A stretch of DNA of 23,116 nucleotides from a virus. The position numbers and the translations under genes were made by a program. The stretch is taken from positions 1 to 23,116 of the IMG/VR virus record IMGVR_UViG_3300043119_000479; one strand, written 5' to 3'. The notes under the pieces are model-generated. The model made no database searches. It saw only the letters and a list, made by a program, of their open reading frames with translations, and had not been told where the DNA came from. Positions 521-20,041 of this stretch are shown here, in pieces; the first letter of the stretch is position 1; every line of letters begins with the position of its first letter.

Positions 521-1147
521 TCACGCGGCGGCCTTGTGGTAACGGGCCGTAAGCGCTTCCACCTTGCAGTCGATCTCGCGGAGGAAGGCGGAAACGTCCC
601 CCTCCAGGTCGAGGATCATCGACACGTCACGGGGGACGCGGCGGATGAACAGGCTCATCTCGGCAGGAAGGCGCGGATCGAACGACACGAAGTCGCACCA
701 CGCCCGGCCCGTACAGGCCATCTGCCACATCATCTGCGTGACGTACTTGGCCGGCACCATCTCACTGAGCAGGGTGTCGAGATGCGTTGCCGTGTTCGGG
801 CACTTGATCTCCAGCATCCCGTCGTCACCGATCAAGCCGTCAGGGCTGGCGCCGCTGTTGGCGATCTCGGGGTGGTCAACGAAGCCGATCTCTTCGACCG
901 TGACGCCCGTACGCTTCTCGTAGGCCGCGCGGGCGAGGGGCTCGGTCTCCGTCCCCCATTGCATCGCCGCGTTGGTGAAGCCGGGGGCCGTGCAGCCAGT
1001 CAGGCGTTCGGCGATCAGCTCGGCGGCGTAGTTGGCGCGAGACGCCCCCCAGCCGGTTTTCGTCTTGGCGATCACGTCGGCCACGCGGGAGGCGGTGACC
1101 TTGCCGCAGCGCATGGCGAACCATTCTGGCGAGCCCTGAATGATCAC
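521..1147 (-). CDS. YqaJ-like viral recombinase (phage exonuclease)
   Basis: 208 residues, the usual size for the lambda-exonuclease/YqaJ family of PD-(D/E)XK nucleases, which degrade one strand from a double-strand end and hand the tail to an annealing protein. Seen: the N-terminal motif MRCGKVTASR (residues 12-21), the metal ligand Asp in SGASPDGL (Asp103), and the E-x-K motif in LEIKCPN (Glu113, Lys115). ATG at 1147 overlaps the ERF stop by four bases, so the two are translationally coupled. Exonuclease beside ERF is the classic two-component phage recombination pair. Confidence 0.92.
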   Translation of the reverse strand: MIIQGSPEWFAMRCGKVTASRVADVIAKTKTGWGASRANYAAELIAERLTGCTAPGFTNAAMQWGTETEPLARAAYEKRTGVTVEEIGFVDHPEIANSGASPDGLIGDDGMLEIKCPNTATHLDTLLSEMVPAKYVTQMMWQMACTGRAWCDFVSFDPRLPAEMSLFIRRVPRDVSMILDLEGDVSAFLREIDCKVEALTARYHKAAA

Positions 1148-1866
1148 GCGGCGTCCTCCAGCTTGGTCTCGGCGAAGTCGGCCACGCGGGCGGCGTAGCG
1201 CTTGTCGAGATCGGCGAGGCGCTCGGGGTCCTTGTCGTCCAGCTCGGCGCGCAGGGCGCTGGCGAGGGCGTAGGCCTTCTCCAGATCGGCGAGGGACTTG
1301 ACCCCGTTGAGGGTGCTTTCCAGACGGTCAGCGCGCTCGCTGAGGGTCGGCTTCTTCGGGGCCTCCTGCTTGCTCTCATTGGCGGGCTGGCGGGGTCCGC
1401 TGGCGGCGTTGCCGTCGTCGTCCTCGGGAGCCGCGCCGCTCATGGCGAGCAGGGTGTAGCGGCGTCCGTAAGTTATCGCCGAGCCAACGCCCTGGGGGTC
1501 GTTCTTGCTGGGCCGCAGCTTCAGTTCACCCGTGACCGACGAGCCGGTTTCGTGTAGAAAAGTGGTGGTCACCAGCACCCATTCGCCGTCGAAGGAGGGG
1601 AACTGCATGACCCCGATCCCGTTGGCGTTGAGGGCCGGCAGCACCGCCTCCACCACCCCGGCGAGGTCGGCGTACTTGGACCTGAACGCGGGGTTGCTGG
1701 ACGCCTTCTTGACGGCCTCGGTGGCCTTCTGAGCGGCGACGAAGGCCTTGGCGAAGGGAGCGCGGTCGCCCTCCCACTTGATACACAGGTGCGGTGTTTC
1801 CAGATCGGCAGCGATCATCGCTTCCTCCATTTGTTTTGCGGTTTCGGGGTCTTCGTACGGGCTCAT
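1144..1866 (-). CDS. erf: ERF family single-strand DNA annealing protein
   Basis: 240 residues. The ERF core is clear: FRSKYADL (61-68), then GSAITYGRRYTLLAM (128-142) followed by the acidic EDDDGN (148-153). ERF proteins form rings that anneal complementary single strands and in P22-like phages circularise or repair the genome. The C-terminal third is Pro/Lys/Glu-rich and probably helical, as is usual for the variable ERF tail. The start at 1866 overlaps the upstream membrane-protein stop by ATGA, and the stop overlaps the exonuclease start. P22 itself has ERF, in keeping with the P22-like late genes here. Confidence 0.95.
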   Translation of the reverse strand: MSPYEDPETAKQMEEAMIAADLETPHLCIKWEGDRAPFAKAFVAAQKATEAVKKASSNPAFRSKYADLAGVVEAVLPALNANGIGVMQFPSFDGEWVLVTTTFLHETGSSVTGELKLRPSKNDPQGVGSAITYGRRYTLLAMSGAAPEDDDGNAASGPRQPANESKQEAPKKPTLSERADRLESTLNGVKSLADLEKAYALASALRAELDDKDPERLADLDKRYAARVADFAETKLEDAA

Positions 1867-2857: not shown

Positions 2858-3108
2858 TCCGTCTCTCCAGAAACAATAAGGGGGGAAGAGGAGAGGGCGG
2901 CCCGGCCAGCGTCGGTGATGCTCCACAGCGGCCAGTAGCCTCCTCGGTCACACGAGACGAAGCCGCGCCGCTCAAGCTGTCCGAGGGCCGCGTAGGTGGC
3001 TTTCGTGCTGGAGGTGGTGGACACCCAGTAGGTGCTGGCGCGACCGCTGCCGCTGCTGTCGAGGCGAACGAGAGCCGCGCGCTGGCGTTCGGTTAGGGTG
3101 GCGCTCAT
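2854..3108 (-). CDS. winged-helix-like DNA-binding protein (tentative)
   Basis: 84 residues. The order fits a small winged helix: an N-terminal helix (LTERQRAALVRLDSS), a middle segment STYWVSTTSSTKATYAALGQL as recognition helix region, RRGFVSCDRGGYWPLW as the wing, then ITDAGRAAL, a closing helix typical of MarR/PadR-like folds. This is fold-level inference from pattern only. It lies second in the PL operon, joined by ATGA overlaps, and could be an early regulator. Its tail SPLIVSGETE is nearly repeated in the next protein. Confidence 0.6.
   Translation of the reverse strand: MSATLTERQRAALVRLDSSGSGRASTYWVSTTSSTKATYAALGQLERRGFVSCDRGGYWPLWSITDAGRAALSSSPLIVSGETE
2870..2884 (-). repeat. 15-bp repeat at a gene junction, copy 2
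   Basis: Second copy of GAAACAATAAGGGGG, with one further G. It encodes the PLIVS near the end of the winged-helix-like protein and abuts the GGAG used by the gene starting at 2857. See copy 1. Confidence 0.75.
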
Positions 3109-3320
3109 CGGCCCGCCTCGATCTCGCTGGCGAACTTCTGAAGAAGCCGCTCCCTGATCTTCGGGCTCAGGTCACCCCAGCCAAGGACGGTGCGCTTCTG
3201 GACGCCCCTGCCTTCAAAGGTGACGAGGTCGATCCGGTCAAACTCTCCATCGGAGAAGACGATCTCAGCCTCAAAGGGGATCGTGACGGTGTCGGTCTGG
3301 GTAGTGGTGTCGAAGGGCAT
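3105..3320 (-). CDS. first gene of the leftward early operon, unknown function
   Basis: 71 residues from ATG 3320. The ribosome site GAGGAAG lies about seven bases upstream, about 20 bases after the predicted PL start. The protein has a Thr-rich beginning (DTTTQTDTVTIPF), a likely beta-rich acidic middle (EAEIVFSDGEFDRIDLVTFEG) and a helical end (SPKIRERLLQKFASEIEAG). The family is not recognised. Its strong ribosome site and first position suggest high early expression on induction. The stop overlaps the next start. Confidence 0.7.
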   Translation of the reverse strand: MPFDTTTQTDTVTIPFEAEIVFSDGEFDRIDLVTFEGRGVQKRTVLGWGDLSPKIRERLLQKFASEIEAGR

Positions 3321-3345
3321 GGGGCTTCCTCAGTTCGTGAGGAAG

Positions 3346-3366
3346 AATGTGCACCCCGTGCGCAAT
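3346..3366. promoter_or_regulatory. operator O1 (PL)
   Basis: A 21-bp imperfect palindrome: AATGTGCAC, 3 bp, GTGCGCAAT (half-sites agree at 7 of 9). It matches O2 at 18 of 21 positions and O3 in inverted orientation. Bound repressor or Cro would cover the spacer and -10 of PL. Confidence 0.7.
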
Positions 3367-3374
3367 CTAGTCAA
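3346..3374 (-). promoter_or_regulatory. PL early promoter
   Basis: Reading leftward: TTGACT (-35, 3374-3369), 17-bp spacer, CACATT (-10, 3351-3346). The spacer plus -10 is exactly operator O1. The transcript would begin near 3339, just before the GAGGAAG ribosome site of the gene at 3320. An alternative -10, TATGAT at 3379-3374, lacks a good -35. The layout matches PR at 3962-3990. Confidence 0.65.
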
Positions 3375-3379
3375 TCATA

Positions 3380-3400
3380 AATGTGCACCACAGGCGCAAT
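3380..3400. promoter_or_regulatory. operator O2 upstream of PL
   Basis: AATGTGCAC, 3 bp, AGGCGCAAT; the right half is degenerate. Its centre is 34 bp from that of O1, a little over three helical turns, which would allow cooperative binding. It begins where the small zinc-ribbon gene ends (TAA at 3402-3400). Confidence 0.65.
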
Positions 3401-3558
3401 TATTCCGGCGCGCCCCTGTCGTTGCCGGTTTGACCGTGCAGGGGATGCGTCCAGCCGCAGCGGACGCAGACGTGCTGATAGGGGCCGTCAGCGTCGCTGT
3501 CGGTCCATTCGTCGTGGCCGAAAAGCCAGCAGATCAGTTTGTCGAGTAGTCGCCCCAT
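3400..3558 (-). CDS. 52-residue zinc-ribbon-like protein
   Basis: A short gene between the repressor and PL. It begins MGRLLDKLICWLFGHDEW and continues to HVCVRCGWTHPLHG. Cys10, His15, Cys31 and Cys34 would form one zinc site. These four residues, plus Arg3-Leu4, fall at the same positions in the protein at 8900-9040, so the two are probably related. ATG 3558 is the only start after an in-frame stop at 3574-3576. No good ribosome site is visible; it may be translated from the repressor transcript, whose stop lies 36 bases upstream. Role unknown. Confidence 0.7.
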   Translation of the reverse strand: MGRLLDKLICWLFGHDEWTDSDADGPYQHVCVRCGWTHPLHGQTGNDRGAPE

Positions 3559-3594
3559 GCGGGCGATATTGGCTCACCAGGCAGGCAAGCGCAA

Positions 3595-3903
3595 CTAGCC
3601 CGCCTTGCGAAACGTCTCTGCAATCTGAACGATTTGCTCTTGAGCTGCCGGCTCTAGCTGGTCCCAGATAGTCCAGATCCCGTTCGGCATGTTTGGATCG
3701 CGTATAATCAAGTCCACCGGCTCACAGCGCAGCTCGGCGGCAAGCAATTCCAGCAGGACTTGATTATAGGGGACCTTGCCGCGCTCGATCTTGCCCAGGT
3801 TCTGGTGGGTCATGCCGATACGCTCGGCGAGCCTCTCTAAAGTCAGCTCGCGAAACTTACGCCACTCGCGGATGTAGTGCCGGGACTTGGGCTGTTTTGC
3901 CAT
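3595..3903 (-). CDS. XRE/C1-type HTH repressor
   Basis: 102 residues from ATG 3903. The helix-turn-helix spans about residues 19-45 (ELTLERLAERIGMTHQNLGK then IERGK), a standard Cro/C1 HTH_3 sequence. The C-terminus (DQLEPAAQEQIVQIAETF) is a short helix. There is no S24 peptidase domain, so RecA-driven self-cleavage in the manner of lambda CI is not expected and induction must work otherwise. It is transcribed divergently from the Cro-like gene across O3. Its own promoter is unclear: TATTTT at 3959-3954 is a possible -10 without a good -35. No clear Shine-Dalgarno sequence is seen. A longer frame to 4164 is rejected because it runs through the divergent gene. Confidence 0.85.
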   Translation of the reverse strand: MAKQPKSRHYIREWRKFRELTLERLAERIGMTHQNLGKIERGKVPYNQVLLELLAAELRCEPVDLIIRDPNMPNGIWTIWDQLEPAAQEQIVQIAETFRKAG

Positions 3904-3946
3904 GCGCACAGGATGAGCGGGCGGGGGCGTCTTCACCACATCACCA

Positions 3947-3955
3947 AATGCGCAA
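3947..3955. promoter_or_regulatory. operator half-site near the repressor promoter
   Basis: AATGCGCAA equals one operator half-site, without a matching second half. It sits between the repressor start and PR. A similar half (CATGCGCAC, 3901-3909) overlaps the repressor start codon. These may be weak sites for autoregulation. Confidence 0.35.
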
Positions 3956-3961
3956 AATATG

Positions 3962-3990
3962 TTGACGGAAATGCGCACACAGTGCACATT
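3962..3990 (+). promoter_or_regulatory. PR early promoter
   Basis: TTGACG (3962-3967), 17-bp spacer, CACATT (3985-3990). It agrees with PL at 22 of 29 positions. The expected transcript start, 7-8 bases after the -10, coincides with the ATG at 3998, so the Cro-like message may be leaderless. Confidence 0.65.
3970..3990. promoter_or_regulatory. operator O3 (PR)
   Basis: AATGCGCAC, ACA, GTGCACATT: half-sites agree at 8 of 9, the best palindrome of the three. It fills the PR spacer and -10, as O1 does at PL, and lies between the repressor and Cro-like genes. Confidence 0.72.
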
Positions 3991-3997
3991 GCTGGTC

Positions 3998-4186
3998 ATG
4001 ACCCTTGAAAAATGGATGGCGAAAAAGAAGCTGGACGACGCCGGGATGGCGAAGCTGGTTCCCCTTTCTCGCTCGCAGATCAATCGCATCCGTCGCCGGG
4101 TAAGTCGGCCTAGCCCCGAGAGCGCCCGCGCTCTTGAGGTGGTCACCAAGATCCCGGCGGCCAAGTTCGTGATGGGTGAGGCCTAG
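3998..4186 (+). CDS. Cro-like HTH regulator
   Basis: 62 residues from ATG 3998; the upstream start at 3959 would lie before the promoter. Residues about 14-36 (DAGMAKLVPLSRSQINRIRR) read as a helix-turn-helix, followed by SRPSPESARALEVVTKIP and a short tail. Size and divergent position opposite the repressor match Cro, which competes for the operators to shut down repressor synthesis. The stop overlaps the convergent gene ending at 4183. If PR works as predicted, translation starts at or within a base or two of the 5' end of the mRNA. Confidence 0.75.
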   Translation: MTLEKWMAKKKLDDAGMAKLVPLSRSQINRIRRRVSRPSPESARALEVVTKIPAAKFVMGEA

Positions 4187-8206: not shown

Positions 8207-8379
8207 CCATCGAAACCAACCACGCCTACGCCGAACTAGGCGGCCTACTCAAAGAGCGCTTCGGCATCCTCCTTACCTCTGACCAGTGCAAATCACTGGT
8301 GGAGGAGGCGAGGGGAATGACCGTGCGTTGGCAGGCCTACGGCGGGCACTCGGGACAACCAGACAAGGGGGTCGCATGA
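8203..8379 (+). CDS. 58-residue hypothetical protein
   Basis: A short gene, joined to both neighbours by ATGA overlaps. It reads MTIETNHAYAELGGLLKERF then ILLTSDQCKSLVEEARGM, a helical unit, and a polar tail. A longer frame starting at 7912 shares this end, but its first part is a shadow of the upstream genes. No family is recognised. Confidence 0.6.
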   Translation: MTIETNHAYAELGGLLKERFGILLTSDQCKSLVEEARGMTVRWQAYGGHSGQPDKGVA

Positions 8380-8903
8380 CCTGGCACGTCGCAGTCGTTC
8401 GTTCGGGCAAAGAGGCCGGCGCAACCCATGACCTCCAGACCATCGGCATCGAAGCCTACTACCCCCAGAAGGTCCGCTGGAAGCAGCTCCAGCTCCGCAA
8501 GGTGCCGGTCTCCTCCCCGATCATCCCCGGCTATGTGTTCTTCCGCCTCAACGAGCCTGACGAACAACGCTACATCGACACCTGCGATGGGGTAACCGGG
8601 GTTCTGACGATGGGCTTCACCCCGCAGGGCGACCGGAAGCTGGCCGGCATCGGCGGCGGGTGGGTCGAAGACATCCGCGCTCAAGAGGCGAGGGGCGACT
8701 TCGACAGCACTATCGACCGTTCCACCAAAGCCAAGCCCGGCGACCGCATCCGCATTGTCACCGGCGCCTTCGCTGATAGAATGGCGGTGATCCTGCGGGC
8801 TGCGAACAAGCGGGAATGGAAGGTCGAGGTTGAGACCACCGGCCCGCTGAAGCCACGGACCACGGTGAGCAAGGCTGAAGTTGAGATGGAGGAGGCGGCG
8901 TGA
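8376..8903 (+). CDS. phage-encoded NusG-like transcription factor
   Basis: 175 residues from ATG 8376, in a four-base overlap with the preceding gene. The N-terminal NGN domain is visible: TWHVAVVRSGKEAGA, then GIEAYYPQKV and PIIPGYVFFRL (49-59), equivalent to the PxxPGY core of NusG. A KOW domain begins near 119 (KPGDRIRIVTGAFADRMAVI), followed by a basic strand region. NusG paralogues such as RfaH and LoaP join RNA polymerase and permit read-through. As nearly the last gene of the early operon, it may act as the late antiterminator in place of lambda Q; that role is inference. Confidence 0.85.
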   Translation: MTWHVAVVRSGKEAGATHDLQTIGIEAYYPQKVRWKQLQLRKVPVSSPIIPGYVFFRLNEPDEQRYIDTCDGVTGVLTMGFTPQGDRKLAGIGGGWVEDIRAQEARGDFDSTIDRSTKAKPGDRIRIVTGAFADRMAVILRAANKREWKVEVETTGPLKPRTTVSKAEVEMEEAA

Positions 8904-10065: not shown

Positions 10066-10563
10066 ATGAGTAGGTTTTACGTTTACACCCTGTCCGACCC
10101 GCGATGCGGAACGGTGTTCTACGTGGGCAAGGGCTCAAGCCTTCGGATGTACCAGCACGCCCTTGAGGCGCGAACCAACAGCAATGGAAACCGCGCCAAG
10201 CTGGACCGCATCTGCGCAATCCAAGGCGACGGGCTTGAGCCGATAGCGGCCAAGGTTGCCGAATACGAGGTTGAGCGTGATGCTCTCAACCATGAGGCGG
10301 ATTTGATCGCCTCGTTGCCGGGCCTGACGAACATCATGTCTGGCGGGGTTTGCCAGTCGCTCACCCCGGAAGAGGTGGCCCGACGCGCAGCAGAGAGGGA
10401 CGCCCGACGCCTTGCCGAAAGGCTTGAGCAAACAGCGGCGGAACTCCGCGACTGGCTGAAACGAGTAGATAGGTGGCCGGGCGTCACGTGCCCCGGCGTT
10501 CGCAACGGTGATCAATTGGCGGAAGACATTCTGTCGGCCATTCGATCCATCGTTGCCCAATAA
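10066..10563 (+). CDS. GIY-YIG family endonuclease
   Basis: 165 residues. The GIY-YIG core is plain: FYVYTL (4-9) and FYVGKG (18-23), with Arg27, His31, Glu77 (NHEADLIASL) and Asn89 as expected catalytic positions. The order with His after the Arg resembles the LEM3-like subgroup. The C-terminal part is a charged helix (VARRAAERDARRLAERLEQT) then a short basic end, possibly DNA-contacting. It lies directly before the terminase genes. It could be a free-standing homing nuclease or assist packaging; no intron or inserted gene is seen near it. Confidence 0.82.
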   Translation: MSRFYVYTLSDPRCGTVFYVGKGSSLRMYQHALEARTNSNGNRAKLDRICAIQGDGLEPIAAKVAEYEVERDALNHEADLIASLPGLTNIMSGGVCQSLTPEEVARRAAERDARRLAERLEQTAAELRDWLKRVDRWPGVTCPGVRNGDQLAEDILSAIRSIVAQ

Positions 10564-18275: not shown

Positions 18276-18734
18276 GTGGCGCTCACCATCACCGTTCCGG
18301 CCAAAATTACCATCGAGGACGATACCGTGGTTCAAATTGACATTGGCGGCTCGCTCGTCTGGCTGGGGGAGACCTACATCCCCGTTCCCGTCGCCTATGC
18401 GGCTGACATTGCGAACGGTGAGAGCCTCACCGCTGCCATCGACCTGACGACCTCTGATCAACGCTGCGCCCGTCCCACGGGTCTGGTCCTTCCCTCGGGA
18501 TGGGACGCCGCCGACGTGACGTTTCAGGTGTCGGTCGATGGGGGCGTGACCTTCTACAACATGTACGACGACGCCGATAACGAGTATGTCGTTCAAGCCG
18601 CCGCAAGCCGCTACGTCGCCCTCAACCCCTCGGATTTCGCCGGGGTCAGCAACCTGAAGATCCGTTCGGGCACCGCCGGCACGCCGATCAACCAGACCGG
18701 CGCCGTGACTGTGACGCTGCAAGCGGCGCGATGA
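18276..18734 (+). CDS. beta-rich virion protein
   Basis: 152 residues from GTG 18276, with AGGGG upstream. The C-terminal part (RPTGLVLPSGWDAADVTFQV, SVDGGVTFYNMYDDADNEYV, RYVALNPSDFAGVSNLKIRS) is a beta-sandwich-like domain often seen in GTA-like and related alphaproteobacterial phages next to spike or tail proteins. The N-terminus (MALTITVPAKITIEDDT) is a further beta strand region. It is likely structural; its stop overlaps the esterase start. Confidence 0.6.
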   Translation: MALTITVPAKITIEDDTVVQIDIGGSLVWLGETYIPVPVAYAADIANGESLTAAIDLTTSDQRCARPTGLVLPSGWDAADVTFQVSVDGGVTFYNMYDDADNEYVVQAAASRYVALNPSDFAGVSNLKIRSGTAGTPINQTGAVTVTLQAAR

Positions 18735-20041
18735 CCTCCTTCGCCCGCGACTTCCTCAACGGGAGCTATCGAGGGACGCCGCCGCCGCTTCCCCCGCCGC
18801 CCCCGCCACCGACGCCGCTTCCCTACGACATCAACATCATTCTGATTTCCGGTCAGTCGAACTCGGAAGATCAGGACGCAGCGCCGATCATCAACCGCAC
18901 GGGCCGGGCCGGTGTGGTGATGCTTGACACGATCCGCCCGCGTACCTGGGGGGCCTCGTTCGGGTCTGCGTTCACGAATGCGGTCGGCACGGAATACATC
19001 AACTCGACCACCTTCCATATGGGTGGCGACATGGTTCCGGCTGTTGGCGACAAGCTGATGCAGTTGATCGAGGACGAAGACGGCTTCACCTACGCCGACC
19101 ACGGGCAGATGATCCTGCCGGTCCATATCGGGCAGTCATCTTCGGCCATTTCCGAGTTCAGCCACGGGACGGCGGTCTTTACCGCTGTGACCGATCACCT
19201 GACGGCTGTTAAGGCCGCAGCGGACGCTCAATCGAAGACGGTCGGCATCATCTGCGGGGCGTGGCTGTGGGGGGCTGACGGCTACGAGGACGACATCACG
19301 CAGTCCGATTGGTACGATCAAGTTCATGCCTACTGGTCAGGGGACGTGAACACCTACCTGGCCGACATCTTTGACCAGCTTGGAGAGAACTTCCCGGTTG
19401 GCTTCATGCAGACCCACGCTCACGGCGCGCGGGGCTATGGGACGAACCCCTACGGCGCTGAAGCTGAACTTGAGCTGGCCGAAGACTTCGCCCGCTATCA
19501 CATCATCAACCCGGAAGGCCCGTGGTTCCTGAACGGCCTTAACCGGGGCTGGGCGGGCTCGACCATTCACCACGGCCCGCACGAAGCGGCGATCATCGGC
19601 GCGTACATCGGCTGGTTTGCGAAGCGGCTGGTTGTGGACGAAGGAACGTGGAACAGCCACATCCCGAGCTTCACCCGGGTCAGCTCGACGGAGATCCGTT
19701 GGACCGGGGCCTTTACCGGCCTCCGCATGGGCGTTGCAGGCACGGGCCTCCCGCCCACAACGATGGTCACCAACTACGGCCTGTTTGCCTACGACCCTTC
19801 GACGCCGACGACGGAAATCGCCCTCACTCGCCCTCCCTATCAGGACGGCAACGACCTCGTTCTAAAGACCGCTGGCACCTTCCCGGTGGGGGTCAAGGTT
19901 CGGGGCGGTTCGCGTACCTCGTCCAGCAACATCGCCTCCAACATCGCGTTCATTTCCGACGACGTGCAGACCTATTCGGTTCTCGGTCAGGAAATCCGGC
20001 TTTGGCGGCACATTCCAACGTTTGACCGGGTGGCTGCATGA
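18731..20041 (+). CDS. SGNH/SASA-type carbohydrate esterase on the virion
   Basis: 436 residues. After a short anchor and a proline-rich linker (17-31) comes ILISGQSNSE, with catalytic Ser43 in the GQSN motif of the sialate O-acetylesterase (SASA) group. A Gly/Asn-rich block follows, and IHHGPHEAA (279-287) supplies the catalytic His region (His281 or His284). Residues after about 305 form a beta-rich C-terminal domain. It would remove acetyl groups from host surface sugars during adsorption. There is no signal peptide; the linker and position suggest it is carried on the particle. Confidence 0.78.
   Translation: MTSFARDFLNGSYRGTPPPLPPPPPPPTPLPYDINIILISGQSNSEDQDAAPIINRTGRAGVVMLDTIRPRTWGASFGSAFTNAVGTEYINSTTFHMGGDMVPAVGDKLMQLIEDEDGFTYADHGQMILPVHIGQSSSAISEFSHGTAVFTAVTDHLTAVKAAADAQSKTVGIICGAWLWGADGYEDDITQSDWYDQVHAYWSGDVNTYLADIFDQLGENFPVGFMQTHAHGARGYGTNPYGAEAELELAEDFARYHIINPEGPWFLNGLNRGWAGSTIHHGPHEAAIIGAYIGWFAKRLVVDEGTWNSHIPSFTRVSSTEIRWTGAFTGLRMGVAGTGLPPTTMVTNYGLFAYDPSTPTTEIALTRPPYQDGNDLVLKTAGTFPVGVKVRGGSRTSSSNIASNIAFISDDVQTYSVLGQEIRLWRHIPTFDRVAA

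Follow-up and report, generated by a model that had tools for sequence, protein, structure and literature searches.

A probable lambda-like lysis/lysogeny control region with a compact, predicted leaderless design in a temperate P22-like phage

Introduction

Lysogeny switches beyond the enteric model phages are poorly mapped. In phages lambda and P22, divergent genes for the repressor (CI or c2) and Cro are located between leftward and rightward early operons, PL and PR share operators, and three full operators stand about 24 bp apart. The repressor mRNA is leaderless, and the repressor undergoes RecA-stimulated self-cleavage through its S24 domain. Lambda CI activates PRM from OR2, at a distance of about 42 bp from the PRM start.

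Several other systems share single features with the locus described here. The telomere phages PY54, N15 and phiKO2, which are gammaproteobacterial linear plasmid prophages, resemble it in the leaderless cI and cro mRNAs of their immB region, demonstrated by RACE in PY54, but differ in operators and layout; in PY54, binding of Cro is confined to OR3 and spares the cro promoter, unlike the scheme proposed below (PMC4488713). Leaderless expression has also been reported for paaR2 in a cryptic E. coli prophage (PMC8630535). In phage T4, long transcripts hide the ribosome-binding site of gene e (lysozyme) in a hairpin, and the proper promoters start inside this hairpin (PMC3014915). The Salmonella phage repressor 5d4z and the phi106 repressor are non-cleavable and controlled by antirepressors.

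Among alphaproteobacterial phages, Rhizobium phages RHph_I1_23 and RHph_N2, Sinorhizobium phage PBC5 and Acetobacter phage phiAP1 carry a short repressor gene of the same family, with a small HTH gene running in the opposite direction. Their repressors are about 30-45% identical to that of the window (the whole stretch of 23,116 nucleotides analysed here), and their operator sequences differ from it; no published operator map for these phages was found in the literature searched.

Phage type, gene order and likely host

The sequence examined is a 23-kb virus fragment with genes on both sides of the switch. Erf and YqaJ recombination genes are located to the left on the minus strand. To the right follow the genes for the replication initiator, the NusG-like protein and terminase, and portal and coat genes of P22 type; this is the lambda/P22 order. 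The portal (phrog_156, E=5e-145) and major head protein (phrog_283, E=4e-80) were assigned by profile, tblastn gave matches to P22-like portals, and the portal and coat genes are of the type expected of a temperate P22-like podovirus. No integrase was recognised within the 23-kb fragment, but the closest relative, G002/L150 (repressor 91% identical), encodes a tyrosine integrase at 752-1753, the outer end of its left arm. The closest chromosomal relatives are in assemblies of Hyphomonadaceae and Caulobacteraceae, which makes an alphaproteobacterial host likely. Related phages infect bacteria of this class. The genes around the switch are as follows.

521-1147, minus strand: YqaJ exonuclease, PL operon (521..1866), by Pfam/PHROG
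1144-1866, minus strand: Erf-like annealing protein, PL operon (521..1866), by Pfam/PHROG
3105-3320, minus strand: first gene of the PL operon, 71 aa, Shine-Dalgarno (SD) sequence GAGGAAG
3400-3558, minus strand: ORF of 52 aa located between rep and PL, with a weak match to DUF1660/phrog_2670
3595-3903, minus strand: rep, 102-aa XRE/HTH_3 repressor, ATG at 3903, Pfam HTH_3 E=2e-8
3998-4186, plus strand: cro-like gene, 62 aa, HTH_3 E=4e-4

The 71-aa product of the first PL gene had no Pfam or PHROG match, and the 52-aa ORF could be co-transcribed with rep.

Away from the switch, the NusG-like protein (8370-8900, plus strand; PF02357, E=2e-9; phrog_6386 "transcription antiterminator", E=5e-20) is encoded between the replication gene and terminase, the position of Q in lambda, and is present in 5 of 15 related records; it is possibly a phage NusG paralogue serving as late antiterminator. 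A GIY-YIG nuclease-like ORF (10066-10563, plus strand; PF22945, E=2e-11) lies directly upstream of the terminase genes. In the tail-gene region, a 436-aa protein (18731-20041, plus strand) possesses a proline-rich N-terminus and a GQSN motif as in SGNH/sialate esterases, and had no Pfam match at E 0.01. The same stretch, GAAACAATAAGGGGG, occurs at 2673-2687 and 2870-2884, at the 3' ends of two adjacent minus-strand ORFs whose products both terminate in PLIVSxx, and is a possible recombination boundary or signal.

Operators and core promoters

PL (TTGACTAGATTGCGCACGGGGTGCACATT, 3374-3346, minus strand) and PR (TTGACGGAAATGCGCACACAGTGCACATT, 3962-3990, plus strand) are identical at 22 of 29 positions, a match that the original prediction had claimed and that direct reading of the sequence confirmed. 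The twin geometry it described (TTGAC -35, 17-bp spacer, CACATT -10, operator over spacer and -10) likewise stands in the sequence.

3346-3374, minus strand: PL, -35 TTGACT (3374-3369), -10 CACATT (3351-3346), predicted transcription start site (TSS) 3338
3346-3366, no strand: OL1, palindrome of 21 bp that takes up the PL spacer and -10
3380-3400, no strand: OL2, two-mismatch copy at 34 bp spacing to OL1, immediately upstream of the PL -35
3901-3909, no strand: half-site CATGCGCAC, overlapping the rep start codon
3962-3990, plus strand: PR, -35 TTGACG (3962-3967), 17-bp spacer, -10 CACATT (3985-3990), predicted TSS 3998
3970-3990, no strand: OR1, palindrome of 21 bp, AATGCGCAC-ACA-GTGCACATT, that takes up the PR spacer and -10

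With a 21-bp palindrome model (AWTGYGCAC-N3-GTGCRCAWT, up to three mismatches allowed), copies were found at 3346-3366 and 3970-3990 without mismatch and at 3380-3400 with two mismatches, and no further copy with three or fewer mismatches occurs anywhere in the whole record. These three copies compare with 0.06 expected by chance, and none of 100 shuffles reached three. The earlier count of three 21-bp operators holds and is far above chance; two sites are perfect, and the third is imperfect in its right arm (AGGCGCAAT). Half-sites taken singly do not exceed the chance level (13 found versus 16.7 expected), so they gain weight only through position and conservation. Two of them had been singled out previously, at 3901 and 3947, with one mismatch each; the latter is conserved at a fixed place, whereas the former, present in L004 and weaker in L006, is not kept family-wide.

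Judged by E. coli promoters, the -10 CACATT is weak. Between 3100 and 4300, a scan for consensus sigma-70 promoters returned none, and its terminator-like matches were the operators themselves. Weakly conserved -10 boxes are usual in S. meliloti (Sinorhizobium), where leaderless transcripts also occur (PMC3616915).

As in the lambdoid switches, divergent repressor and Cro-type HTH genes lie between leftward and rightward early operons, and PL and PR carry the same operator over the core promoter. Unlike them, the locus has one full OR operator and a half-site 34 bp off instead of three full operators.

Conservation of the layout in relatives

Relatives were gathered by searches with repressor alignments in viral contigs and genomes, and were reduced to 79 non-redundant loci. 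L004 and L005, whose Rep is 91% identical, and L006 (70%) carry one full PR operator and two PL-side operators with altered letters, the PL-side spacing being 34 or 33 bp; the half-operator OR2 is also present in L004 and L006. In another locus (L012), a Cro relative cut off at the contig end, the operator end likewise falls 7 nt before the ATG. The search for the palindrome in related phages that had been proposed as a check thus finds all three sites kept in the relatives with 91% and 70% identical Rep, but with their letters changed. This conservation, together with the integrase in one of these relatives, marks the locus as the probable immunity region of a P22-like phage of temperate lifestyle.

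A pattern search of the whole collection for the exact PR layout matched only the two closest relatives, because the operator sequence drifts; it varies from phage to phage, and the layout is constant. The distance from TTGAC to ATG on the divergent strand has a sharp peak at 34-37 nt that is missing from control regions. In 52 of the 79 loci, a divergent ORF of 50-110 aa has a TTG -35 box (at least 4/6) at 34-38 nt ahead of its ATG, compared with 5-17 loci for other distance windows of equal width, and since the 52 loci were selected by the -35 distance, the selection inflates that number.

A PL-side copy of the PR operator, downstream of rep, was detected in 34 of the 52 loci at p<=0.02. There are typically two such copies, 32-36 bp apart, or three in 16-19 bp steps, the last one behind a TTG box. 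A composition-matched dyad test, which has low power, reached p<=0.05 in 12 of the 52 relatives, so the palindrome is weaker in the relatives than in the window. The original interpretation is borne out in part: its scheme of PL and PR as early promoters plugged by shared operators around rep and cro is supported by the gene order, including the integrase in the close relative, and by the sites and geometry kept in relatives.

Leaderless signatures of cro and rep

When the loci are aligned on the cro ATG, A is found at -11 in 35 of 51, C at -1 in 40 of 51, and an SD-like sequence in 1 of 51. None of these traits had served to choose the loci, and they fit transcription starting at the A of this ATG. 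For rep, the alignment point was the ATG nearest to 94 nt from cro; here -11A occurs in 39/51, -7T in 38/51, -1C in 31/51 and an SD-like sequence in 2/51. In contrast, 21 of 32 PL genes have an SD-like sequence. The rep ATG lies 93-95 nt from the cro ATG in 36 of 52 loci, and among the 27 loci outside the -35-selected set 11 also have a start pair in the 92-95 bin. The leaderless layout was also scored in RHph_N2 (L065) and PBC5 (L067).

In the window, where the cro start codon at 3998 is backed by homologues, the cro mRNA is predicted to be leaderless, starting with the A of this ATG; cro would thereby be leaderless as well as the repressor gene, which would distinguish the locus from lambda and P22. 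The rep mRNA is likewise predicted to be leaderless, starting at 3903, 95 bp from the cro start.

3903-3915, minus strand: PRM, -10 CATCCT (3915-3910), placed for TSS 3903

No -35 of PRM is recognisable in the window. In the PRM -35 area (3936-3945), a ctATGG-like motif occurs in many relatives (G at -42, T/G/G at -35 to -33) and gives rise to false in-frame start codons (ATG) 35-36 nt ahead of the true start of rep. A cluster of rep starts 57-62 nt from cro was rejected as an upstream in-frame ATG, and nearly all of these loci also have an ATG near 94.

The half-operator OR2 and its position before rep

Exactly 34 bp from OR1, a second operator is represented by one arm, and the half-site originally noted at 3947 is, as we read it, part of this half-operator.

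3936-3956, no strand: OR2 half-operator, PR-proximal arm 3948-3956 ATGCGCAAA

The PR-proximal arm alone is conserved, and the other arm is not recognisable. Across the loci, the proximal arm of OR is repeated 34 bp upstream with 5.37 of 10 letters matching, versus about 2.4 at other offsets, and the match reaches at least 7/10 in 20 loci. It is locus-specific, as arms permuted between loci gave 3.36, with a maximum of 4.12 in 10,000 permutations. With one representative per arm type (33 types), the match was 5.12, against a maximum of 4.30 in 20,000.

The dyad centre of OR2 (3946) lies 43 bp before the predicted rep start. Since this position (-43) is near the lambda spacing, it points to activation of PRM by a cooperatively held dimer, and Rep probably activates its own weak promoter through OR2. 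A third OR site over the rep start, at the half-site 3901, 69 bp from OR1, was considered and dropped, as no family-wide signal exists there.

An inverted repeat over the PL start

3325-3345, minus strand: inverted repeat, CTTCCTCA (3345-3338) / TGAGGAAG (3332-3325), spanning the predicted PL TSS

The downstream arm of this repeat is the SD of the first PL gene, and most of the upstream arm falls outside the PL transcript if transcription starts at 3338, as the 36-nt rule indicates. A hairpin as part of the PL mRNA was dropped for this reason. In 33 loci, the arms form 5.88 pairs on average with their own partner versus 4.50 when permuted (maximum 5.30 in 20,000). The arms covary between loci, with the signal centred on the PL TSS (z 6.7; 6.4 for the strictly upstream part). 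The loop length varies widely, from 4 to about 20 nt, which speaks for an RNA hairpin. With read-through, the predicted unpaired fraction of the SD shifts modestly, from 0.39 to 0.24. We hypothesise that the inverted repeat keeps repressor read-through from translating the lytic genes. As in T4 gene e, the promoter start, here placed by geometry, would lie inside an SD-sequestering inverted repeat that acts in longer transcripts (PMC3014915); unlike there, the arrangement is proposed for an early promoter, PL, against read-through from the repressor gene.

The repressor and release from lysogeny

The XRE repressor and Cro-like HTH calls of the original prediction are upheld by the HTH_3 matches listed above, that of the Cro-like protein being just below the Pfam cut-off, and PHROG matches for Rep are to transcriptional regulators or repressors. 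Profile searches with Peptidase_S24 (PF00717) found no match in the window or in 14 related records (15 records), which confirms that the repressor is without an S24 domain. With 102 aa and no PF00717, Rep departs from the self-cleaving repressors of lambda and P22, and self-cleavage is therefore unlikely. The stronger wording, that induction cannot follow this route, is softened to likely, since the record is a fragment and 3 of the 79 relatives have much longer repressors (213-230 aa). L021 and L023 share the N-terminal HTH and have long C-terminal extensions, S24-like by eye; repressor scaffolds may swap cleavage domains.

An AlphaFold model of Rep (pLDDT 84) consists of the HTH and C-terminal helices 76-82 and 85-101. 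Foldseek with this model returned ClgR, SinR, restriction controllers, the P22 c2 N-domain, DdrO and short phage repressors, with E values of at least 1e-3. The 5d4z and phi106 repressors, which are among these matches, are like Rep in having a short HTH, C-terminal helices and no S24 domain, but the whole-chain similarity is weak (best E 1e-3). Induction would most likely proceed through an antirepressor or another trigger.

Proposed switch and alternative readings

The locus is quite probably the lysis/lysogeny control region of a temperate P22-like phage, a lambda-like switch of compact leaderless design. Its sites, their geometry and conservation, the leaderless signatures and the lack of S24 are read directly from the DNA. 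In the lysogenic state, Rep dimers would occupy OR1 and OL1, the full palindromes between -35 and start, and block RNA polymerase at PR and PL. On either side, contact with this first dimer would hold a second one 34 bp further upstream, at OL2 and at the half-operator OR2. The dimer at OR2, centred 43 bp before the rep start, would probably activate PRM. The transcripts of cro from PR and of rep from PRM would both lack a leader, and on the lytic path Cro would compete for the same sites. Because the PL start would lie inside the inverted repeat, the PL mRNA would have a free SD, and read-through from rep would fold it away. Release from lysogeny would occur without self-cleavage of Rep, most likely via an antirepressor. 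Who binds, cooperativity, PRM activation, the role of Cro, translational insulation and induction are putative parts of the scheme.

Both Rep and the Cro-like protein possess an HTH, so the palindromes may belong mainly to the latter, or be shared in a reversed hierarchy with Rep as accessory regulator; small divergent XRE/YdaS-type genes can be regulators themselves, and the YdaS Pfam model matches 2 of 21 Cro relatives. We regard this as unlikely, however, since rep is placed between PL and PR, its PHROG matches are to transcriptional regulators or repressors, and Rep is conserved at 91% and 70% along with the operators, with an integrase in a close relative. Slightly less likely still is that OR2 is an AT-rich promoter-flank (UP-like) element resembling an operator arm. 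The bases at -46 to -43 are indeed A/T-rich across the family, and arm matching between loci exceeds background (3.3 versus 2.4), but the locus-specific match is above all 10,000 between-locus permutations, and it tracks the specificity bases (TGCGCA in the window; CTGAAA, GCGAAA and GTGACT elsewhere).

It is very improbable that the cro transcript has a leader and that translation begins at ATG 3959 or 3971, with ATG 3998 internal: these upstream ATGs do exist in the cro frame, but homologues start at the equivalent of ATG 3998, only a few residues away from the conserved core, the distance from -35 to cro ATG peaks at 35-37 nt, and -11A and -1C sit right for a start at 3998, with no SD. The inverted repeat leaves more room for doubt. 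Instead of silencing read-through, it may be an operator at which some other regulator binds the DNA, or a hairpin that stabilises the PL mRNA. This is a real possibility, though not the reading we favour; the arms differ between loci as operator arms do, and the exact PL TSS follows from the distance rule. Against this, the wide loop range suits an RNA hairpin better than a dyad, the SD is retained in the downstream arm, and it is with the segment lying upstream of the predicted PL TSS that this arm pairs best.

Implications for the phage family

Compared with lambda and P22, the locus has in common an activation-type OR2 position before PRM, P22-like head genes and the gene order. The comparison of 79 loci suggests four points that the original prediction lacked: leaderless transcripts of cro and of rep, the reading of the 3947 half-site as OR2 at 34 bp spacing, and the inverted repeat that spans the PL start. 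The locus is a new version of the lambda-type switch, whose interest lies in a family-wide geometry that yields testable predictions.

More tentatively, and with confidence only just short of even, we propose that a large, mostly alphaproteobacterial family of temperate phages uses a fixed switch "ruler". Its marks would be two divergent leaderless genes spaced by about 95 bp, a half-operator at exactly 34 bp to OR1 that cooperative binding makes a lambda-like PRM activation site, and a PL start in an SD-hiding hairpin that silences read-through, with the operator sequence drifting and the ruler kept. If this is true, one rule (about 36 nt from TTGAC to ATG with the operator in this interval, a half-site 34 bp further upstream, and about 95 bp between the two ATGs) would be enough to derive the operators, the immunity groups and the transcript starts of dozens of uncultivated phages from their DNA. 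Nature would then also have supplied a set of repressors that differ in DNA specificity but share one layout. Two ideas would become open to testing: that both switch proteins are expressed without leaders, and that the lytic operon is insulated from read-through of the repressor gene.
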